Of a stretch of 64,000 bases of DNA, positions 1,408-31,793 are shown piece after piece (within the stretch, counting starts at the first letter, position 1; every line of letters starts with the position of its first letter). This DNA comes from Salinispora pacifica CNR114 (GTDB lineage Bacteria > Actinomycetota > Actinomycetes > Mycobacteriales > Micromonosporaceae): the NCBI RefSeq assembly GCF_000514775.1, contig NZ_AZWO01000030.1, positions 1 through 64,000 of the forward strand, given 5' to 3'. The position numbers and the translations under genes are program-made. A model generated the notes under the pieces. It worked only from the letters and a program-made list of their open reading frames with translations, was not told the DNA's origin and made no database searches.

Positions 1408-1713
1408 GTGCCTACCCAGGCCGACGACCAGCGGCGGCTGGGCGACCGAGCAGGTGACAGCGCACTCATGCGAGACGTACCCCGGTATTGCTTCCGCCAC
1501 CGCGCTGCTGGGGCGGAGCGGCGAGGTAGCGCAGACGTGCTGGCTCTGGGCGCCGACACCCCGACCACCAAACGCCCGCTCGCGAACGTGCGCGACGCGG
1601 GAAAGGGCCCGGGGCGGGTGCCGGGCTCCGGCCGGTACGCCACGCGCGGACGTGCCGGTCGCCCCCGCCCGCCTCGGCGCCGCCCCCACCCCACCCGACC
1701 TGAGAGGACGTGA
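1408..1713 (+). CDS. Small basic protein of unknown function
   Basis: GTG start at 1408 with GGGG seven bases upstream; 101 aa. The second half is rich in Arg and Pro and has no recognisable domain. Support comes from the ribosome-binding site, strong third-position GC bias, and a GTGA overlap with the next gene at 1710. It could still be a non-coding leader in front of the DivIVA-like gene, since overlapping frames are also open here. Confidence 0.4.
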   Translation: MPTQADDQRRLGDRAGDSALMRDVPRYCFRHRAAGAERRGSADVLALGADTPTTKRPLANVRDAGKGPGRVPGSGRYATRGRAGRPRPPRRRPHPTRPERT

Positions 1714-1976
1714 CCGCCATGATCCACCGAGCCCGACGCCTGTTCTCATCCCAGGTTCGCGCCGCGACCTTCGCCCGGCGGCGGTGGCGCGGCTTAGACC
1801 CCGAGCAGGTGTACGCCTACCTCGACCGCGTCGCCGACGAGCTGGAACGGCTCACCCGGGAAGCGCGCACCGCTCACACCGAGGGTGAGCTGATCCGGCA
1901 GGCGTTGCGGCAGTGGCAGTCCCGACACGCCGACTGCCAGCATGCCGCCACCACGAATGGCCGATGGCACCGCTGA
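1710..1976 (+). CDS. Small DivIVA-domain-like protein
   Basis: 88 aa from a GTG at 1710 (an ATG at 1719 is the alternative; AGAGGA at 1703-1708 could serve either). Residues about 22-55 (FARRRWRGLDPEQVYAYLDR then VADELERLTREARTA) match the DivIVA N-terminal signature, FxxxxRGYDxxxVxxFLxxV..., followed by a short amphipathic helix. Full DivIVA proteins continue into a long coiled coil that is absent here. Related short proteins are frequent in Micromonosporaceae. A role at poles or septa is inferred only from the family. A second, longer DivIVA-domain protein lies at 28572-29318. Confidence 0.6.
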   Translation: MTAMIHRARRLFSSQVRAATFARRRWRGLDPEQVYAYLDRVADELERLTREARTAHTEGELIRQALRQWQSRHADCQHAATTNGRWHR

Positions 1977-2909: not shown

Positions 2910-5752
2910 CGATCCCCGCTTCCCCGAGAGTTCTCGCCGACCAGGGCCAGGAACGCGTCCTCCAGGCGCCGCCGGGGCACCACCCGGTCCACCCCGATAC
3001 CGGCCCGCACCAACTCGGCGACCACCTCGCTGCGGGCAGTGCCGTTGGTGTCCACCACGAGCTGCCCGTCGCCGTCGGGCAGCACCGAGACGCCCGCGAG
3101 CCGGTCCAGCACCTCCCGCGCGGCCACCGGGTCGGTGACCTCCAGCAGGACGCTCGGCGACTCGCCGACGATCTCCTCAACCGGGCCGGACGCGACGATC
3201 TGCCCCTTGGTCACCACCACCGCGTGGGTGCACGTCTGCTCCACCTCGGCGAGCAGGTGGCTGGAGACCAGCACCGCCCGGCCACCGGTGGCGTACCGCC
3301 GTAGGACCCGGCGCATCTCGGCGATCTGCGGCGGGTCCAGGCCGTCGGTCGGCTCGTCGAGCACCAGCAGCTCCGGCAGGCCGAGCATCGCCTGCGCGAT
3401 CGCCAGCCGCTGCCGCATGCCGTGGCTGTACGTCCGGACCCTGCGGTACACCGAGGTGCCCAGCCCGGCGATCTCCAACGCCTCGTCGAGGTGCGCGTCG
3501 GCCCACGGCCGCCCGGTCGCCCGCCAGTACGCCTTCAGGTTGTCCAGCCCGGACAGGTGCGGCAGGAAGCCGGGGCCCTCCACCAGGGCTCCGATCCGGG
3601 ACAGCACCGGGGCGCCCGGCACCAGCCGGTGCCCGAAGACGTAGACCTCGCCGGTGGTCGGCTGGGTCAGCCCCATCAAGACCCGTAGCGTGGTGGTCTT
3701 GCCCGCGCCATTCGGGCCGAGCAGGCCCACCACCTGCCCGGGGTGCACCTCGAAGTCGACGTTGGAGACGGCGACGAAGCCGTCCGCGTACTCCTTGCGC
3801 AGTTCCCGGACGGCGAGCGGGACGCCCGCGTACGCCGGGTGGACCCGGCTCTCCCGACGCCGGTGCCGGCGGCGGAGGACGGCGACGACCACGACGAGCC
3901 CGACCACGATCGTGGCGAGCAGCCCGGCGAGCACCCAGCGCCAGACGACGGCGTCGGTGGGGATCGGCTCGCTGGCGACCGTGGGGAGGGTGACCGCCCC
4001 GCCCGCCAGGGCCACACTGTAGACGGCCGGTTCGACCGGGGTGGCGTACGCCTGGTCGGAGGTCGCCACCACGACCCGCAGCCGGTGCCCGGCCTCGATC
4101 CGGCGGACGATCGCCGGCAGCGTGACGGTGACCGGTTCGGCGTCCTCGACGGCCGCCGGTAGCCCCGCCAGCCGGATCGGCGCGACCAACCCGTTCGGTA
4201 GGGTCGCTGACCCATCACCGGCAACGTCGTAGAGCTTGACGAAGAGTACGGCCGTGCCGGTCGGGGACGCGGCCCGGATGGAGATGGTCGGCGCGCCGAC
4301 CACGTCCACCGCCGCCGGCAGCGGCGCGGACTCGAACCGGGCGTGCTGGCCGGGAATGTCCCCGGCGACCCCGTCGAGCAGCGACGAGAGCTCCCCGGCG
4401 AAGGGCACCGACGAGATCGCGGCCGGGTTGCCGGCCGGCGGGTTGGCGATTGACTGGGCCGGACCGCTCACCGACACCGGCTGCTGGCCGGTGCCGGTCA
4501 CGCCCGGGTAGCCGGTGGCGCGGAAGCCGCTGGCGACCAGACCCCGGTCGAGGGCGTCGAACCCGGCGATCCGGGAGAAGGTGAAGTCGTCGGCGGGGGC
4601 CGCGCCCTCGCCCTTGACGTAGTGGTCGAGCCACCGCACGGTCAGGTGCCGTACCCGGTCCCGGTCGGACTTCGGGCCGTCGCCGCCGTCGTGCCCGCCG
4701 GTGAACCAGGCCACCTGGACCGGGGTGCCGGTCGCGGCGACTTCCCGGGCGTTCGCGTCCGCCTCGGCGAGCGGGAAGAGGGTGTCGGCCGCCCCCTGCA
4801 CCAGCAGCGTCGGCGCCTCGATCCGGTCGAGTTGCCCGGCCGGGCTGGAACGGCGCAGCAGTGCGACGGCGGCCGGGTCGGCCCGCCCGGTGGTGGCGAT
4901 CCGCAGGTACGCGGCGCACACGTCGGCGGCGAACCGCCCGCAGGAGGGGTCAACGGCGCCGGCCGTGGTGGCCGCGTTCTCCGGGAGGGAGCCGCCCGGG
5001 ACGGAACCGCCACCGGGGGCAAGGCCGCCGGCCGGGCCGGAGCCACCGAGGGTGGCGGGGCCGGGGTTGCCGCCGCTGCCGAAGAAGAGCCCGGCCCAGC
5101 CCTTCTTGAACACCCCCTGCTCCGGCCCCTCGCCGCTCTGCTCCGGCAGGAAGGAGCGGGCGAGGTCGTTCCAGGTGATCATCGGCACGATCGCGTCGAC
5201 CCGCTGGTCCCGCCCGGCGAGCAGCAGCGCCAGCGCACCGCCGTAGGAGCCGCCGACCACACCCACCCGCGGGTCCCCGGCGGCGTCGGTGACGACCTCC
5301 GGGCGGGCGGCCAGCCAGTCCAGCAGGCGCTGCGCGTCGCGGACCTCGTAGTCCGGGTGGTCCAGGTGGATCTGCCCGCCGCTGCGACCGAAGCCCCGCG
5401 CGGTCCAGGTCAGCACCGCGTACCCGCGGCGGGCGAACTCCTCGGCGTCGGCGCGGACCGACTCCTTGGTGCCGCCGAAGCCGTGCCCGAGCAGCACCGC
5501 CGGCACCGGGGCGTCGGCGGCCGCGGCGGGGGGCAGATACAGCGTGGTGTCCAGCTCGACCGGCTCGTCGCCGCTCGGCCCGGACCGGACGGTGATCAGC
5601 GCCGCCTCGGTGCGCAGGTCCGGCTCGGCGGGCCGGAGGGTCCCGGCGACTCCGGCGGCGAGCAGGACGACGACCACCGCCGCCGCGGCCAGCGCACGCC
5701 GACGGGTGGGCAGGGCGCGCCGGATCCACGCGGCCGGTGACGGCGATCTCAT
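2906..5752 (-). CDS. Alpha/beta hydrolase fused to an ABC transporter ATPase
   Basis: 948 aa from ATG at 5750-5752; an open extension to 5869 encodes only VLSADSP repeats and is not used. Residues 1-30 form an N-terminal membrane anchor (RRRALAAAAVVVVLLAAGVA). Residues about 50-600 are a CocE/X-Pro-dipeptidyl-peptidase-type hydrolase with HGFGG and nucleophile Ser169 in GGSYGG, plus the C-terminal jelly-roll typical of this class. A second membrane helix (WVLAGLLATIVVGLVVVVAV) follows. The last 270 residues are a complete ABC ATPase: Walker A GPNGAGKTTT near residue 679, signature YSHGMRQRLAIA, Walker B LLVLDEPTDGLDP. The hydrolase would lie outside and the ATPase inside. ATGA overlap with the permease gene. 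The substrate is unknown. Confidence 0.85.
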   Translation of the reverse strand: MRSPSPAAWIRRALPTRRRALAAAAVVVVLLAAGVAGTLRPAEPDLRTEAALITVRSGPSGDEPVELDTTLYLPPAAAADAPVPAVLLGHGFGGTKESVRADAEEFARRGYAVLTWTARGFGRSGGQIHLDHPDYEVRDAQRLLDWLAARPEVVTDAAGDPRVGVVGGSYGGALALLLAGRDQRVDAIVPMITWNDLARSFLPEQSGEGPEQGVFKKGWAGLFFGSGGNPGPATLGGSGPAGGLAPGGGSVPGGSLPENAATTAGAVDPSCGRFAADVCAAYLRIATTGRADPAAVALLRRSSPAGQLDRIEAPTLLVQGAADTLFPLAEADANAREVAATGTPVQVAWFTGGHDGGDGPKSDRDRVRHLTVRWLDHYVKGEGAAPADDFTFSRIAGFDALDRGLVASGFRATGYPGVTGTGQQPVSVSGPAQSIANPPAGNPAAISSVPFAGELSSLLDGVAGDIPGQHARFESAPLPAAVDVVGAPTISIRAASPTGTAVLFVKLYDVAGDGSATLPNGLVAPIRLAGLPAAVEDAEPVTVTLPAIVRRIEAGHRLRVVVATSDQAYATPVEPAVYSVALAGGAVTLPTVASEPIPTDAVVWRWVLAGLLATIVVGLVVVVAVLRRRHRRRESRVHPAYAGVPLAVRELRKEYADGFVAVSNVDFEVHPGQVVGLLGPNGAGKTTTLRVLMGLTQPTTGEVYVFGHRLVPGAPVLSRIGALVEGPGFLPHLSGLDNLKAYWRATGRPWADAHLDEALEIAGLGTSVYRRVRTYSHGMRQRLAIAQAMLGLPELLVLDEPTDGLDPPQIAEMRRVLRRYATGGRAVLVSSHLLAEVEQTCTHAVVVTKGQIVASGPVEEIVGESPSVLLEVTDPVAAREVLDRLAGVSVLPDGDGQLVVDTNGTARSEVVAELVRAGIGVDRVVPRRRLEDAFLALVGENSRGSGDR

Positions 5753-25138: not shown

Positions 25139-26308
25139 ATGGCCGTCTACAGTGCTCGACAGCTCCACGGCTTGCGAATCATCGTCACCGGCGGCGGCAC
25201 CGGGGGGCACACCTATCCGGCACTGACGACCATCCGAACGCTCCGCGCCCGCCTCGCCGAAACCGGCGCCGAGCCCGACATTCTCTGGGTCGGCGTCGAG
25301 CAGGGACTGGAGGCGAGGATCGCCCGGCAGGAGGGCCTACCCTTCCGCGCCATCACCACCGGAAAGTTACGGCGGTCCCCCAACCGTCAGGAGCTGTGGC
25401 GCAACATCACCGACGCGTTCCGGATTCCGATCGGCGTACTGCAGGCCATGGCGACCGTACTGCGGGTCCGGCCGCACGTGGTCCTCTCCACCGGCGGCTA
25501 CGTCTCCGTCCCGATCGGTCTGGCCGCCTGGCTGGCCCGGCGCCCCCTGGTCATGCACGAGCAAACCCTCAACCTGGGCCTGGCCAACCGGATTCTCGCC
25601 CTGGTCGCCCGCCGGGTGCTGCTAAGCCACACCTCCTCGTTGCCGAACCTGTCGAAGCGAGCGCAGGCCAGAGCGGTGGTCACCGGCAACCCGGTCCGCC
25701 CCGACATGCTCACCGGAGACCCGGCTGCCGGCCGTGCCGCCTACGGACTGGAGCCGCACCTGCCACTGGTCTTCGTCACCGGCGGGGCGCAGGGCGCGGT
25801 GCAGGTAAACCAGATGATCGCCGAGGTCCTCCCCGATGTCCTGCAACGCTGCCAGGTGCTGCACCAGTGCGGGGAACACAGCCTGGACCGCATGCGACAG
25901 GTCGCCGCGCAGTTACCGCCGCACCTACAGGCCCGCTACCGCGTCGTGGACTATATCCATGGGCAACTGCCCGACGTGCTCGCCGCCGCCGACATCGTGG
26001 TCGCGCGCAGTGGCGCCGGCACAGTAGCCGAGCTGACCGCGTTGGGCCGACCGGCAATCCTGATCCCACTCGTGCCGACCTCCGGCGATGAGCAGCGGCA
26101 GACCGCCCGGCACCTCGCCGCGGCCGGCGCGGCGCGGATGCTCACCGGCGGCGATGCCACCGGCGCCGCGCTCCGCGCCGAACTCTTGACGTTGCTGGAC
26201 GACGCGCAGCGTCGTCACGCCCTGGCGGAGGCCGCCCGCCGCCACGGCCGGCCAGACGCTGCTGCCGCCGCCGTCACCGAGCTGATCGACGCCGCCCGCC
26301 GCGGCTGA
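25139..26308 (+). CDS. MurG-like glycosyltransferase (stand-alone paralogue)
   Basis: 389 aa from ATG at 25139 with GGGGA five bases upstream. The N-terminal GT28 domain has VTGGGTGGHTYPALTTIRTL and HVVLSTGGYVSVPIG. The C-terminal UDP-sugar domain has VFVTGGAQGAVQVNQMI and ARSGAGTVAELTALGRPAI. This is the MurG pattern (UDP-GlcNAc to lipid I), but no division or cell-wall genes surround it, and MurG normally sits in the dcw cluster. It may be a second MurG or a glycosyltransferase with another acceptor. Confidence 0.85.
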   Translation: MAVYSARQLHGLRIIVTGGGTGGHTYPALTTIRTLRARLAETGAEPDILWVGVEQGLEARIARQEGLPFRAITTGKLRRSPNRQELWRNITDAFRIPIGVLQAMATVLRVRPHVVLSTGGYVSVPIGLAAWLARRPLVMHEQTLNLGLANRILALVARRVLLSHTSSLPNLSKRAQARAVVTGNPVRPDMLTGDPAAGRAAYGLEPHLPLVFVTGGAQGAVQVNQMIAEVLPDVLQRCQVLHQCGEHSLDRMRQVAAQLPPHLQARYRVVDYIHGQLPDVLAAADIVVARSGAGTVAELTALGRPAILIPLVPTSGDEQRQTARHLAAAGAARMLTGGDATGAALRAELLTLLDDAQRRHALAEAARRHGRPDAAAAAVTELIDAARRG

Positions 26309-26309
26309 C

Positions 26310-26485
26310 GCACCGCGCTTCGCGATCGCCGCGCAGTCGGCGGCCCTGGCCGGTTCCGAGGCCCCAGCCGGCCAGGATTTCGGCGAATCCGGCGCGGCTC
26401 ACCCCAGGCCGCTCCGCGAACGCGGCATCCCCGATCGCATCCACCCCTGGGTGGTGGATACGAGACCGCCCGCATGGTCGCAGCC
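26310..26485 (-). pseudogene. Decayed copy of the NADH-dehydrogenase-like gene
   Basis: Bases 26412-26440 are identical over 29 bp to 29748-29776 in the intact gene at 29409-30587, and 26460-26478 matches 29789-29807 exactly. On the minus strand the fragment reads DAIGDAAFAERPG, as in the intact gene, but frameshifts follow (a later stretch still resembles the QAADAIAARL segment in another frame). The rest of the gene is missing. Orientation is the same as that of the intact copy 3.3 kb away. Confidence 0.75.
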
Positions 26486-26760
26486 CACCCGGCCGCACCG
26501 GTCACCGCCTGGCCGCACCGGCCCGGGGACCCCCAGGCGAGGCCGGGCAGCCACCCGTACCACCACCTCCGCAGCGACCAGGCACCAGAAAGACCCTCAG
26601 CTCAGAAACCACCGACCAAACATGCAAAAGCCCTGCCCACAGCGGCCGGTATTTCGGCTCCATCCAAGGCCAGCGGCATCGGCTAAACGAAGAGTTTTGT
26701 CCGCATTTATGACGTAGACACGTCTGGTCGGCTGCGACTATCGTCGCTGGAGCAGATCGA
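26486..26760. other. Gene-free spacer before the hemoglobin operon
   Basis: No convincing coding frame or RNA. The left part is GC-rich and the right part (26590-26760) is lower in GC than the rest of the window, which fits a promoter-proximal or transferred segment. Confidence 0.5.
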
Positions 26761-26797
26761 TCAACACAAAGCAAGTGTTGACGACAAACGCAACACC
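26761..26797. promoter_or_regulatory. Three-half-site operator upstream of the hemoglobin genes
   Basis: TCAACAC (26761-26767), inverse GTGTTGA (26775-26781) and CAACACC (26791-26797) form two overlapping inverted repeats that share the middle half-site. The middle half-site contains TTGACG (26778-26783), a plausible -35 element, so a bound regulator would block or position RNA polymerase. It lies 175 bp before the truncated hemoglobin start. The regulator is unknown; the sites do not look like known NsrR or Rex consensus sequences. Confidence 0.5.
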
Positions 26798-26971
26798 TGC
26801 TAAGTGGTGCCGTGGCAGTTCACGGTGGCGCTACTCAAACTGCCAGGCAAGCAAATTCCAAACAACGGGGAACGGCCGCAGTGCGTGCGCAGGACCTGGT
26901 GGTGCCGCGCCCCAACACCTCCCTGCCGGCACCCGTCCGGTCCCGCGAAGTCTGAGACTGAAGGCGGATAT

Positions 26972-27388
26972 ATGACCACAACAACGCAGCCCGAAAATGC
27001 CGAGTCGATGTACGACCGGATTGGCGGCGCGTCAACCGTGACGCGAGTCGTGGACCGGCTCTACACGCTGATCCTGGACGACTCGCTGCTGCGTCCGACC
27101 TTCCACGACAAGGACCTGGTCCCACTCAAACGGCACATGACTGCGTTGCTGTCACAGGTCCTCGGCGGCCCCAAGGCCTACACCGGTCAGGATCTTGCCA
27201 CAGTGCACCAACCACTTGCCATAACGGATGCGCAGTATCGCTCGGTCGCCGACTACCTGCTCGCATGCCTTTACATCGAACATGCTCCCGCCGATGTGCT
27301 CGCGGCAATGGTCGAGACCCTTACCACGCTACAAGCCACCATCGTAAGCGCCGATTCCGATCCCGCACCGGTTGGTTCGCCGACGTGA
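26972..27388 (+). CDS. Truncated hemoglobin, group I type
   Basis: 138 aa from ATG 26972, preceded by AAGGCGGA. SMYDRIGGASTVTRVVDRLY is the trHbN start, with the B10 Tyr at the end of that stretch. FHDKDLVPLKRHMTALLSQV covers the CD-E region, LGGPKAYTGQDL follows, and the proximal haem ligand is the His in ATVHQPL. Group I proteins typically oxidise nitric oxide to nitrate with bound oxygen. A C-terminal tail of about 15 residues is unstructured. The stop overlaps the flavohemoglobin start (GTGA), so the two are translated together. Confidence 0.92.
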   Translation: MTTTTQPENAESMYDRIGGASTVTRVVDRLYTLILDDSLLRPTFHDKDLVPLKRHMTALLSQVLGGPKAYTGQDLATVHQPLAITDAQYRSVADYLLACLYIEHAPADVLAAMVETLTTLQATIVSADSDPAPVGSPT

Positions 27389-28575
27389 CAGTGGAGCCTG
27401 ACCGGCTACAAGCGTCGTGGGCGCGGGTTGTCGCGCATGGTGATGCGGTGCCGGCCTACTTCTACGCGGCTTTGTTCACGCGTAACCCGCAGCTGCGACA
27501 ACTCTTCCCGGCGTCCATGGCGGGCCAACGGGATCGGCTGGTCACCGCGCTTGGACGCATTGTCGCCGGTGTTGGTCAGCCAGACGTGATGTTGCCTTTC
27601 GCACGCGGGCTCGGCCGCGACCACCGACGCTTCGACGTTCGTCCCGAGCACTACCCGCCCGTTGGGGAGGCGCTACTGGCCACCCTCAGCCAGTTCCTCG
27701 GCCCGGACTGGGACGCCGACCTGGCCGCCGGGTGGACTGAGGCGTACGGCCTCGTCGCGCAGGTCATGTGTGATGCCGCGGCGGAGGCCACCCGCAACGA
27801 GCCCCCGTACTGGAAAGCGCTGGTTGTCGAACACGAACGCCGGGGCCTGGATGTGGCGGTGGTCCGACTGCAGGTGGACCAGCCCGTGCCCTACTGGTAC
27901 CTGCCGGGTCAGTCCTGCGCGATCGAGGTGCCGACACGGCTTCGCCTCTGGCGGTACTACTCCCCGGCGAACATTCCGCGCCGCGATGGGTTGGTTGAGC
28001 TACACGTGAAGGCCGTACCAGGTGGGGAGGTCTCCACCGCCATCGTGCAGTCGCTGCGCGTCGGCGACGAGACCCGCGTCGGCGCGCCCATCGGGCACAG
28101 CCTGACCCTGGACCCGGACTCCGGTCGGGATCTCCTGCTGCTCGCCGGCGGCACCGGCCTGGCTCCGCTGAAGGCACTCACCGAACAACTCGCCGCCGAG
28201 GGCGGCCGACGACGAGTCACCCTCGTCGTCGGCGGTCGCACGAGTGGCGACCTCTACGACCTACCCGCCCTGGAATCCATGGCGCAGCAGATGCCCTGGT
28301 TGACCGTCGTCCCCACCCTGTCCCACGATGCCCACGCCGCCGGCGTTCACCGTGGCACCGCCGTGGACGTCGCACTACGCATGGGCCGCTGGGACACGCA
28401 CGACATCTACGTCTGCGGTCCAGCCGAAATGGTCGCCACCAGCCGCGAGCGTCTCGCCGAGGCTGGTATCGCCCCGCAACAGATTCGAAGCGAGGACGGT
28501 ACCAACGACCCCTACCGCCCCGACTCCGTAGCCACCGTCACGGTGGCCGACCGCGCCGAGGTGTACGCACGATGA
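27385..28575 (+). CDS. Flavohemoglobin (NO dioxygenase type)
   Basis: 396 aa from the GTG at 27385 that overlaps the trHb stop. Residues 1-135 are a globin: B10 Tyr in YFYAALFTRNP and proximal His in GRDHRRFDVRPEHY. Residues 150-260 bind FAD (WRYYSPAN for RxYS). The NAD module has LLLLAGGTGLAPLKAL and IYVCGPAEMVATS. It is slightly shorter than E. coli Hmp (396 aa) only in loops and looks complete. It converts NO plus O2 to nitrate using NAD(P)H. Its stop overlaps the DivIVA-protein start (ATGA). Confidence 0.92.
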   Translation: MTVEPDRLQASWARVVAHGDAVPAYFYAALFTRNPQLRQLFPASMAGQRDRLVTALGRIVAGVGQPDVMLPFARGLGRDHRRFDVRPEHYPPVGEALLATLSQFLGPDWDADLAAGWTEAYGLVAQVMCDAAAEATRNEPPYWKALVVEHERRGLDVAVVRLQVDQPVPYWYLPGQSCAIEVPTRLRLWRYYSPANIPRRDGLVELHVKAVPGGEVSTAIVQSLRVGDETRVGAPIGHSLTLDPDSGRDLLLLAGGTGLAPLKALTEQLAAEGGRRRVTLVVGGRTSGDLYDLPALESMAQQMPWLTVVPTLSHDAHAAGVHRGTAVDVALRMGRWDTHDIYVCGPAEMVATSRERLAEAGIAPQQIRSEDGTNDPYRPDSVATVTVADRAEVYAR

Positions 28576-29318
28576 ACACCGCCAACCACACCCGCGACGA
28601 GCCTAAACTCGGGCTGGAACAAGCCCTACCTCGCGGATGGCAACCGCTGTCCCCGGAACACGTCCGGGGACAGCGGTTCCGCGAGACCGCACTCGGTCGC
28701 CGTGGCTACCGCCCGGACGAGGTCGAGGCATTCCTCGCCCGAATGGCCGAGGAGGTGCAACGGTGGACCACCATCCACGCCCGCGACCTCGCGGAAATCA
28801 ACCGGCTGCGCGACTTCTTCCGCAACCAGAACATCGACACCGAACCCGCCCGCCAACGCGCCTTCTCCAGCGAGGCGATCAACATCCTGGCCACCGCCCA
28901 GCAACAGGCCGACCAACTCATCGCCGATGCCAAAACCCACGCCCGCAGCATGCAGACCGACGCGCGTAGCCAGGCCGAACGCGTCGTCGTCGAGGCACGC
29001 CGCGAGGCGGAAGCAGCCGCTCACGCCTACCGCGTCCGCGCAGGTCAGCAATACTCCGCCGACCGCGAACAGGTCGAACGCCTCGCCGCCATCGCACGAA
29101 ACATCCTCGCCGCAGTCGCCGGCGCCACCAGCCAACTCGATGGCGCCACCAGCCAACTCGATGGCGCCAGCGCCCAGATCCGGGCCGTGGGCGACGCCTT
29201 CAGCGCCGAACTGACCAAGTTGGTCGGTCCCCCAATCGCCGCACCCGAACGCGCCGCCATACCGGACCATCCCACAGCCACCGGCATCCAACCCGCCCGC
29301 GGACAGACGCACCGGTAG
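28572..29318 (+). CDS. DivIVA-domain coiled-coil protein
   Basis: 248 aa. Residues about 25-70 contain the DivIVA lipid-binding signature (RFRETALGRRGYRPDEVEAF, then LARMAEEVQRW). A long Ala/Glu/Arg-rich coiled coil follows (residues 95-190), with a duplicated GATSQLD heptad near 185-199 and a disordered tail. ATGA overlap with the flavohemoglobin gene makes it the third gene of that operon. DivIVA proteins mark curved membranes, poles and septa. Why one is coupled to NO-handling globins is not explained by known biology. Confidence 0.88.
   Translation: MNTANHTRDEPKLGLEQALPRGWQPLSPEHVRGQRFRETALGRRGYRPDEVEAFLARMAEEVQRWTTIHARDLAEINRLRDFFRNQNIDTEPARQRAFSSEAINILATAQQQADQLIADAKTHARSMQTDARSQAERVVVEARREAEAAAHAYRVRAGQQYSADREQVERLAAIARNILAAVAGATSQLDGATSQLDGASAQIRAVGDAFSAELTKLVGPPIAAPERAAIPDHPTATGIQPARGQTHR
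28642..28678. repeat. 16-bp perfect hairpin inside the DivIVA-protein gene
   Basis: Arms AACCGCTGTCCCCGGA (28642-28657) and TCCGGGGACAGCGGTT (28663-28678) pair perfectly around a 5-nt loop. It lies 70 bp into the coding region, just after codon 23. A stem this long and perfect is unusual inside a coding sequence. Confidence 0.9.
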
Positions 29319-29408
29319 CCAAAGCGCCACGAACCCCCAACGACCCACCACGCCGTAGGCCGCACCGAGAGCCGGGTGACCGGGCACCGGTGGTCTGTTT
29401 CGCACAGC

Positions 29409-30587
29409 TCAGCGCAATGCGTACGGCCCGCTCAGGCTGGTGCGGTAACGGCGGGTCGGCAGCAGCAACGTGGGGTGGCGGACGCTCCAGGCCGCTCCCT
29501 TGCAGACCGTTTCCTTGTACCGGGCTGCCATCCTTCCGGCGAGGAAAGACGACTTGGCGCGGTCATCGGCGGTCACGAACTGGATGAGCCCGTCCCGCCG
29601 GCCGAGACTGACGCACTGGTTGAAGTAGCGGAACGCGAGTTTCGGCACCTCCCGGCCGGTCAGGCGCGCAGCGATCGCGTCGGCGGCCTGCCACCCCATC
29701 GGAATCCCGGTGGCGCAGGACATCCGGAGCGGCTTACCCCCAGGCCCCTCCGCGAACGCGGCATCCCCGATCGCATACACCTCGGGGTACGAGACCGCCC
29801 GCATGGTGGCATCCACCCGAATCTGTCCAGTCTCGGCAAGCTCAAGGGGCGTGGCGGCGGCGATGGGGTGAACGGCGAAGCCCGCCGTCCAGACAGTCAC
29901 CTGAGCCGGAATGGTTCGGGCGTCGCCGGTGACCGCGCTGGCCGCGTCGACCCCGGCGATGTTCGTGTGCTCGTGCACGGTGATGCCGAGCCGGTCGCAA
30001 ACACGTCGTAGGTGACGCCGTGCCCCGACGTCCAGCCAGTCACCGAGGCCGCCGCGGGCGGCGATCGCGACGGCGAGGTCCGGCCGCGCCTCGGCGATCT
30101 CGGTGGCAGCTTCGAGGCCGGTCAGCCCACCTCCAACGACCAGAATGTTCCCGCCGGCGCCGAGGCGGACCAGGCGGTCGCGCAGCCGCAGCGCGGACTC
30201 CCTTCCAGCGATGTTGTAGGCGTGCGCGGCGACACCGGGAACCCCGTGGTCAGTACCGGTGCTACCGAGGGCGTAGACGAGGGTGTCGTAGCTGATCTCG
30301 TCCGCGCCCTGCTGGTCCACCAACGTGACGATCTTGTGGTCGAGGTCAACCGCGGTGACTCGCCCCAGGAGTAGCCGCACGTCCGTACCCGCGTAGATGT
30401 CACGCAGTCGGCGGTGGGCGAGGCGCTGTCCGGTCGCGAGTTGGTGCAGCCGGACCCGCTCGACGAACTCGGCCTCGGCGTTGACGACAGTGATCTCGAC
30501 GCTGTCGGGGTGCAGCCGCCGGGCGAGACGTCCGGCGGCGGCGGTTCCGGCGTATCCGGCCCCGAGGACGACGATGCGGTGCTTCAT
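29409..30587 (-). CDS. NAD(P)H dehydrogenase-like FAD flavoprotein (NDH-2 fold)
   Basis: 392 aa. The FAD motif is RIVVLGAGYAGTAAAGRLAR at the N-terminus, followed by LVYALGSTG, a second Rossmann motif NILVVGGGLTGLEAATEIAE for NAD(P)H, and the C-terminal FAD contact VYAIGDAAFAEGPGGKPLRM. There is no CxxC disulphide, so this is an NDH-2-like quinone or other acceptor reductase. The sigma-factor gene lies 81 bp upstream on the same strand. A decayed copy lies at 26310-26485. Confidence 0.88.
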   Translation of the reverse strand: MKHRIVVLGAGYAGTAAAGRLARRLHPDSVEITVVNAEAEFVERVRLHQLATGQRLAHRRLRDIYAGTDVRLLLGRVTAVDLDHKIVTLVDQQGADEISYDTLVYALGSTGTDHGVPGVAAHAYNIAGRESALRLRDRLVRLGAGGNILVVGGGLTGLEAATEIAEARPDLAVAIAARGGLGDWLDVGARRHLRRVCDRLGITVHEHTNIAGVDAASAVTGDARTIPAQVTVWTAGFAVHPIAAATPLELAETGQIRVDATMRAVSYPEVYAIGDAAFAEGPGGKPLRMSCATGIPMGWQAADAIAARLTGREVPKLAFRYFNQCVSLGRRDGLIQFVTADDRAKSSFLAGRMAARYKETVCKGAAWSVRHPTLLLPTRRYRTSLSGPYALR

Positions 30588-30668
30588 GATCTCACTCCTG
30601 TCTCGATGCGTCCGCTTCCTGAACCGGACAGCGACGCGGTTACTGACAGGAGTTCGCCGTGAGCTGGG

Positions 30669-31613
30669 TCACCAGGCTTCGATGAGCGGTTCGCCGGGCT
30701 CGGCCGCGGACCAGCGGTGGGTGGCGCGGACAAGCTTGTCGGGGTTGACCTGGGTATGGATGGCCGCGATGCCCTCCCCGGTCAGGTGCAGGGACATGAC
30801 GGCGACGACCCGGTCGTCGAGCACGACCACCACCGCGGGCCCGCCGTTGACGACGCCGGCATAGACAGCAGGTCGGCCGCCGATCCGGTCTCGTTTGACT
30901 TTGGTGGGAACGAGGAGACCGCGCAGGAACCGCGCCACCGCCAGCGCGCCGGCGACCGGCGTGGTCCGGGCCGGAACCTTGCCACCACCGTCGCCGACGC
31001 TCGTCGCGTCCGCGGTCAGGAGCTCGACGAGCCGCCGAACCTCCCCACTGGTGGCGGCCACAAGGAACTCCTCGACGACCTTCCGCGTGCTGGTCGCGTC
31101 CACCTCCGCCCGGACCCGGTCGGTGCTGATGTGCTGCTTCGCCCGCCGGTAGATCTGTTGGCAGTTCGACTCGGTGAGGTCGAGGAACTCGGCGATCTCA
31201 CCGTGCGAGTAACCGAACGCCGCCCGGAGCACGTACACCACCCGCTCGTTGGCCGAGAGCCGCTCCAGCAGGACGAGCACCGCCATCGAGACCGACTCCC
31301 GCTGCTCCACGGTGTCGACCGGGCCGAGCATCGGGTCTCCGGGGAGCAACGGCTCGGGCAGCCAGGTGCCCACGTACCTCTCGCGCCGGGCGCGCGCCGA
31401 GGTGAGCTGGTTGAGACAGAGGTTGGTGAGCACCTTCGTCAGCCACGCCTCGGGCGTCCGAACCACGGTCCGGTCGGTGGCCTGCCACCGGAGAAACGTC
31501 TCCTGGACCGCGTCCTCGGCGTCGCTCGCCGAACCGAGCAGCCGGTAGGCGATCGCCTCCAACCGAGCCCTGGAGTGCTCGAACAGCTCGACCTCGTGCG
31601 AACGCAGCGGCAT
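30669..31613 (-). CDS. ECF41-type sigma factor (SigJ-like)
   Basis: 314 aa from ATG 31611-31613. Region 2 is ARLEAIAYRLLGSASDAEDA then VQETFLRW; region 4 is RVVYVLRAAFGYSHGEIAEF then LDLTESNCQQIYRRAK. The C-terminal SnoaL-like domain carries the three features that define ECF41 factors: WLPEP in the linker, DGGGK, and NPDKL near the end. In this group the fused domain replaces an anti-sigma factor, and neighbouring oxidoreductase genes are the usual targets. That fits the flavoprotein gene immediately downstream. Confidence 0.92.
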   Translation of the reverse strand: MPLRSHEVELFEHSRARLEAIAYRLLGSASDAEDAVQETFLRWQATDRTVVRTPEAWLTKVLTNLCLNQLTSARARRERYVGTWLPEPLLPGDPMLGPVDTVEQRESVSMAVLVLLERLSANERVVYVLRAAFGYSHGEIAEFLDLTESNCQQIYRRAKQHISTDRVRAEVDATSTRKVVEEFLVAATSGEVRRLVELLTADATSVGDGGGKVPARTTPVAGALAVARFLRGLLVPTKVKRDRIGGRPAVYAGVVNGGPAVVVVLDDRVVAVMSLHLTGEGIAAIHTQVNPDKLVRATHRWSAAEPGEPLIEAW

Positions 31614-31793
31614 GACCCGACAGTAGCCACACGGCCCCCGAGGCACCACGGCTCGGCTCGGCCCGCCGGTAGCGTCGGTGACCTGCGCCACGGCGCCGGT
31701 CTGGTCGCCCGGGATGCCGAGCGACGGTGCCGGTCTGGTCGCCCGGGGTGCCGAGCGACGACCGGTGTCGGACCGCCGTGTCAGGCTGGACCC

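Follow-up and report, generated by a model that had tools for sequence, protein, structure and literature searches.

The 64,000-nucleotide stretch of Salinispora pacifica CNR114 analysed here (contig NZ_AZWO01000030.1; hereafter the window) carries consecutive genes for a group I truncated haemoglobin (trHb), a flavohaemoglobin (fHb), and a DivIVA-domain coiled-coil protein, of a type known to mark membranes and cell poles. In the loci examined, the fHb gene and the DivIVA-like gene are the constant pair, while the first gene, here called X, varies. The conserved coupling points to an undescribed, possibly membrane-anchored unit for handling nitric oxide (NO) in many soil and marine actinobacteria. 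We hold, with about even confidence, that the actinobacterial operon "haem protein X, flavohaemoglobin, DivIVA" encodes a DivIVA-scaffolded NO-dioxygenase unit, the complex, localisation, and activity of which we infer from sequence. The usual picture of NO defence in bacteria is one of soluble enzymes; a pair of apparently single origin, seen broken by one TnpB insertion only and combined with an exchangeable X that can be a NO synthase, suggests spatially organised NO chemistry in many actinobacteria. Several carriers are filamentous antibiotic producers and some, for example Micromonospora and Salinispora, are genetically tractable, so the idea is open to experiment.

The flavohaemoglobin-DivIVA gene pair

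The trHb gene (26972-27388, 138 amino acids, ATG start), the fHb gene (27385-28575, 396 amino acids, GTG start), and the DivIVA-domain gene (28572-29318, 248 amino acids, ATG start) all lie on the + strand, each interval ending with its stop codon. The first-pass annotation of the window had described them as joined by 4-bp overlaps, and the open reading frame (ORF) coordinates bear this out: GTGA (27385-27388, +) spans the trHb stop and the fHb start, and ATGA (28572-28575, +) spans the fHb stop and the DivIVA start. Our gene-order table covers 160 loci, 127 DivIVA-coupled and 33 not, with 11 pairs of identical fHb from overlapping sets; it omits the same-genus trios L076, L078, L079, and L080 and the fHb matches L109 and L116. 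GTGA or ATGA contains the fHb stop at 123 of the 127 coupled loci versus 3 of the 33 in which no DivIVA gene was detected, and in 91 of the 127 the frame from a start at -4 runs open into that of DivIVA. The overlap between trHb and fHb is atypical, measuring 4 bp in 7 of 83 trHb-type loci; a 2-bp gap is found in 61 of the 83.

The pair was followed through GTDB species genomes, which were scanned with an fHb alignment; from at least 521 confirmed loci we took the best 80, ranked by fHb similarity alone, as the named set. A conserved-neighbourhood search, the check proposed in the first-pass annotation, found a DivIVA-like ORF downstream of fHb in 80/80 named loci, from 7 named families plus metagenome-assembled genomes (MAGs), with the DivIVA-like domain beginning 18-251 bp past the fHb stop. 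Among the genera are Salinispora, Micromonospora, Verrucosispora, Plantactinospora, Actinocatenispora, Actinorhabdospora, Prauserella, Allonocardiopsis, Actinomadura, Nonomuraea, Streptomyces (one), Modestobacter, Blastococcus, Geodermatophilus, and Mumia. These counts rest on a lenient DivIVA-like profile iterated on the downstream ORFs, and gene content was taken from homology searches, the gene caller being weak on GTG starts and antisense ORFs. In an independent Pfam test, 23/23 sampled members (the window and 22 named loci) match both PF05103 and TIGR03544 at E 0.001; the DivIVA protein of one same-genus trio falls slightly below the PF05103 cut-off (26.1 versus 28 bits).

The first-pass annotation had named an order unique to this genome as a refutation of its reading; we reject such uniqueness, since the trio recurs in other genera and in 42 of 60 same-genus relatives besides the window's genome. 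Another 10 of the 60 carry only an operon with a NO synthase (NOS) as X, and one of the 42 (G056) carries both types; in the other 8, the best fHb matches are paralogues, and no fHb of the DivIVA-coupled clade was seen. Across the phylum, 24 of 396 evenly drawn genomes have an fHb match at E 1e-50, and 4 of those 24, namely the window's genome, G012 (NOS type), G320, and G363, have a DivIVA-like gene after fHb. Two of the sampled genomes (G141 and G341) have too little downstream DNA, and two (G420 and G456) lie outside the neighbour check. The arrangement is widespread but rare across the phylum.

A tree of 103 of the 160 fHb rows (99 different; LG+C20) was built with rows limited for Micromonospora, Actinomadura, and unnamed trHb-type loci and with very long or cut rows dropped. 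One branch (100/100) splits 30 uncoupled rows from 73 others, 71 of which are DivIVA-coupled. On the coupled side there are two exceptions: in L151 the contig stops 115 bp past fHb, and in G056 fHb and the coiled-coil gene are separated by an inserted OrfB_IS605/TnpB gene (L229, 3872-5155). Among the 30 uncoupled rows (27 different sequences), no DivIVA-like ORF starts within 400 bp downstream in 29, and the remaining one (L093) offered just 70 bp. The pairing of fHb and DivIVA seems to have arisen once. Adjacency by chance was considered because DivIVA genes are common, and was rejected on the comparison of 0/29 uncoupled tree rows with 80/80 named loci.

It is quite unlikely, in our estimate, that co-regulation alone accounts for the pair, that is, that the operon yields a soluble NO dioxygenase while the DivIVA-like product acts elsewhere, for example in envelope stress, with no globin contact. 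DivIVA-domain genes are indeed common and many lie away from globins: 20/20 further short DivIVA-domain matches have no globin within about 3.5 kb, a weak control that proves existence only, its loci having been picked as not already seen beside an fHb. Co-regulation fits poorly with a single clade that keeps the pair in all named loci of 7 named families while X differs between branches, and with the retention of the pair in Salinispora although at a different locus.

No report joining DivIVA to a globin, flavohaemoglobin, or flavohemoprotein was found in the open-licence literature of PubMed Central (PMC), where NO synthase together with DivIVA returned only seemingly unrelated papers. The first-pass annotation knew of no described system with this combination, and we found no record of the coupling in print there; the parts themselves are known families. 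A likeness by name is HGbRL (3wfw), known here from its name only, which joins an fHb-type globin to another kind of domain, by fusion to Roadblock/LC7, whereas the DivIVA-type partner here is a separate gene.

The exchangeable first gene

Among the 80 named loci, 49 have a group I trHb as X, 17 (all Actinomadura) a single-domain globin, and 3 an Hmp flavohaemoprotein; in 11 no X was recognised, and in 66 X is a haem protein that lacks a reductase domain. A long match had hinted that in Actinomadura a trHb is fused inside the fHb, and this was rejected, the globin there being a separate single-domain gene. In 11 same-genus genomes (the 10 noted above and G056), a NO synthase oxygenase (PF02898) stands directly before fHb. 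These NOS-type loci (L090-L092 and L136-L143) carry after fHb a coiled-coil gene without a clear DivIVA domain, the product of which belongs to the DivIVA-like family by profile yet reaches only 15 bits with PF05103 (cut-off 28). The NO synthase of L092 scores 416 bits, above the PF02898 cut-off, and L090-L092, the three loci for which long flanks were available, have neighbours in common with trio loci.

The spacing between X and fHb, for which start codons were chosen by the analyst, is 7 bp or less from X stop to fHb start in 81/83 trHb, 15/17 single-domain-globin, and 11/11 NOS loci; the remaining 4 of these show 27 or 28 bp. In 4 Hmp loci the gap is 27-78 bp, and Hmp is the sole X with its own reductase. 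Tight spacing where X has no reductase and wider spacing for Hmp suggest that an X of the former kind may draw electrons from the fHb. An arrangement of this sort has a partial precedent in the bicistronic operon of a trHb (GlbN) and a ferredoxin reductase treated in a review that also discusses FNR-like donors for trHbs (PMC3820574). That operon resembles the present one in linking a trHb gene to an FNR-type reductase and differs in that the review's passages on it make no mention of a globin on the reductase, nor of DivIVA. Electron transfer from fHb to X must be dispensable, since X is unrecognised in 11/80 named loci and trHb is absent in Salinispora oceanensis.

One might go further and read the operon as a nitrate or nitration module, in which the fHb would mainly feed electrons to X, NO would become nitrate for assimilation or chemistry, and DivIVA would hold the relay together. 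The NOS genes directly upstream of fHb in the 11 genomes speak for such a module, as does SyNOS of Synechococcus PCC 7335, a globin-NOS fusion reported to mobilise nitrogen from arginine to nitrate (PMC6104048). Like SyNOS, the NOS-type operons may link NO synthesis to a globin; unlike them, SyNOS is one fused chain that includes a reductase domain. We nevertheless judge the module very unlikely. No NO synthase match was found in the window's genome, and X is a trHb or single-domain globin, making no NO, in the 66 named loci noted above. NO synthase is present in 26 of 101 genomes, and in the 13 examined of the 15 that have it without the operon, no fHb of this kind lies near it. As a separate observation, L216 of G050 holds a partial NO synthase match (about 2973-3431, about 160 of 455 residues), possibly from a decayed NOS-type operon.

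Proposed catalysis, scaffolding and sensing

The proposed mechanism starts from the fHb, which would act as an NAD(P)H-driven NO dioxygenase that turns NO and O2 into nitrate and the FAD/NAD module of which may also re-reduce an X without its own reductase. The DivIVA-domain protein would oligomerise through its coiled coil, and its N-terminal tip would tether the enzymes to the membrane, poles, or septa, such that NO would be destroyed, or with NO synthase handled, at its place of entry or production. For the NOS type, the coiled coil would have to scaffold without a canonical tip. Detoxification of NO by both globins, which the first-pass annotation took as known, would follow from family membership, and the trHb is not a constant member.

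For the window fHb, Globin (53.1 bits), FAD_binding_6 (50.4 bits), and NAD_binding_1 (56.9 bits) domains are all above the Pfam cut-off in one chain, and the nearest structures are the flavohaemoproteins 3ozu, 1cqx, and 1gvh (E 2.4e-28 to 3.5e-26; 3ozu covers residues 9-368). The likeness to Hmp consists in this domain order and in the haem-pocket residues, TyrB10, GlnE7, HisF8, and TyrG5 being all present. The first three of these residues are kept in 123/123 coupled fHbs outside 4 degenerate ones, as expected for catalysis, and TyrG5 in 122/123 (duplicates included). The constant DivIVA-like neighbour sets the window fHb apart from Hmp. Hmp has the C-terminal end ECFGP, which is absent from the window fHb. 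The trHb of the window (PF01152, 64 bits versus a cut-off of 21) has HbN chains as its best solved relatives (1idr and 2gkn; E 7.4e-14), with which it shares TyrB10, LeuE7, and the proximal HisF8. It differs in having Met in place of the GlnE11 of HbN, and its gene adjoins that of a flavohaemoglobin. Across operon trHbs, TyrB10 and HisF8 occur in 79/79, with Leu at E11 in 62/79 and Gln in 10/79.

The DivIVA-domain protein of the window matches PF05103 (39.3 bits, cut-off 28) and TIGR03544 (33.5 bits, cut-off 22), and its nearest solved structure is the N-terminal domain of Wag31 (6lfa, E 4.8e-4). An AlphaFold model from a 23-sequence alignment (mean predicted local distance difference test score 74.8, predicted template modelling score 0.41) places the N-terminus on 6lfa with a root-mean-square deviation of 1.3 for 58 columns (by Foldseek, a probability of 1.00 but an E value of 0.29); beyond it the model shows long helices. 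The likeness to Wag31/DivIVA polar scaffolds thus lies in this domain and in the pattern of the membrane tip, which in the window protein reads L, R, R (hydrophobic plus two basic) and in Wag31 I18/K20/R21, the residues mutated in a preprint study (PMC12393619). The protein differs in being encoded with haem enzymes and in scoring 44.5 bits against the Wag31 equivalog NF050102 (cut-off 260), by which it is best classed as something other than a Wag31 orthologue; a separate Wag31 is encoded on contig 35 of the window's genome.

The first-pass annotation suggested that the globins may be localised by the coiled-coil protein, which is supported only indirectly, by the DivIVA domain in all 23 proteins sampled, by a tip with a hydrophobic and two basic residues in 67/80 named loci, and by correlated divergence of the three genes. 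In 20 loci, pairwise distances correlate between fHb and DivIVA (r 0.94), fHb and trHb (0.92), and trHb and DivIVA (0.91), values reached in 0/2000 permutations each. The wider reading, that a cytoskeleton-type scaffold of the DivIVA family builds a polar or membrane assembly around the flavohaemoglobin, with exchangeable haem partners and spatially confined NO metabolism, we put forward tentatively and with more doubt than belief.

Several observations weigh against the scaffolded NO-dioxygenase unit. The window fHb scores far below the cut-off of the NCBIfam equivalog for the NO-inducible flavohaemoprotein Hmp (130.3 versus 432 bits) and is best regarded, on that score, as a divergent Hmp relative rather than an Hmp orthologue or Hmp sensu stricto. 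At least one of the two basic tip residues is missing in 13/80 named loci (Geodermatophilaceae and Nonomuraea) as well as in G320 and G363, and 10/10 NOS-type coiled-coil proteins have lost the tip. In the part of the Wag31 preprint that concerns it, a tip mutant still arrived at the septum (PMC12393619), so that the tip alone need not decide placement. The correlated distances partly reflect shared ancestry. To these are added the 11 named loci without a recognised X, the S. oceanensis operon in which fHb and DivIVA stand without trHb, and the 13 genomes in which NO synthase has no such fHb nearby.

The same genes could instead form a sensor, an unlikely but coherent alternative in which the haem proteins would detect NO, O2, or redox state and, by way of the DivIVA-like partner, signal to tip growth at the poles, septation, or the synthesis of the cell wall, with NO removal secondary. 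DivIVA-domain proteins are described as hubs for cell-wall and division partners in the portion of the preprint devoted to them (PMC12393619), and degenerate fHbs persist in the genus. This paralogous family, without the haem-ligand residues, has E 1e-75 matches in 85 of 151 genomes, and no match at that threshold in the window's genome. Among 60 family loci (20 given by the search and 40 chosen from further rows; L144-L147 and L321-L380 belong to the family), TyrB10 is found in 0/60, an aligned HisF8 in 6/60, and the FAD arginine in 60/60. A trHb-like gene precedes 20/60, with HisF8 in 0/20 of these, and a mini-DivIVA follows 14/60, neighbour counts that come from single-sequence searches and are perhaps too few. 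Not all degenerate paralogues belong to the system, and those with a mini-DivIVA, which suggest that the link between flavin module and DivIVA can outlive haem chemistry, keep the sensor alternative alive. The conservation of TyrB10, GlnE7, and HisF8 in all non-degenerate coupled fHbs counts against a sensor, as do the low Wag31 score of the window protein and the presence of a separate Wag31 in the same genome. Downstream of degenerate fHbs we also saw several different partners, some GNAT-acetyltransferase-like by eye.

The Salinispora copy and its surroundings

Salinispora probably acquired the operon horizontally, as judged from its relatives, location, and composition. The closest named record among the matches listed is S. 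oceanensis, with an fHb 94% identical; in the tree, the window and S. oceanensis group together (100/99); their neighbours are the degenerate paralogues of the same genus (99/90), and a MAG from groundwater branches outside these (90/92, not starred). Species named Micromonospora also belong to the window's GTDB genus, and some relatives carry the fHb of named Micromonospora loci. Several same-genus loci lie near MerR-like and glycine-dehydrogenase-like genes (family F3, 12/21 long-flank loci; by eye), and the window's copy is not near those genes. G042 matches the window's sequence on either side of the operon at 89% and 85% but lacks the intervening 3.1 kb except for 55- and 65-bp matches; other genes occupy the site, one of which contains an ABM domain and another a cupin match that stays under the cut-off. 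The GC content at third codon positions is 0.725, 0.803, and 0.794 for the trHb, fHb, and DivIVA genes, against a mean of 0.872 (standard deviation 0.056) for 44 window ORFs, a mean biased upwards by a gene caller whose score rewards this quantity. The window's genome holds one further trHb-family gene and four further fHb matches, of which two cover just the reductase part.

S. oceanensis seems to have lost trHb while fHb and DivIVA remain. Before its fHb (L230, about 4850-5000) there is only a short ORF that by eye resembles the start of a trHb.

Upstream of the window operon, a Shine-Dalgarno-like GAAGG precedes trHb at 26960-26964, and a weak sigma-70-like promoter match (26715-26744, +; 9 of 12 positions), the sole one within 26200-29500, is not evidence of function. 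An alignment of upstream regions from Micromonospora and relatives shows a conserved promoter-like stretch, for which a regulator was not identified; this promoter- or operator-like stretch before trHb (for example in L240, L254, and L271) reads TGTCGGGAATCCGAT then CACGCTAT-GTCCG. The only + strand terminator-like site within 26200-29500 lies after the operon (29379-29391); on both strands such sites number 3, against a mean of 1.9 in shuffles, which is about equally frequent.

Inside the DivIVA gene, a perfect 21-bp tandem repeat of 2.3 copies (29121-29169) encodes a repeated GATSQLD segment. Adjoining the operon on the - strand (29409-31691) are convergent genes for an FAD/NAD oxidoreductase and a SigJ-type sigma factor, also found in G042 beside a different insert. 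Elsewhere in the window (1710-1976, +), a solitary 88-amino-acid mini-DivIVA protein (PF05103, 30.0 bits) is encoded, with GntR-like ORFs nearby, as judged by eye.

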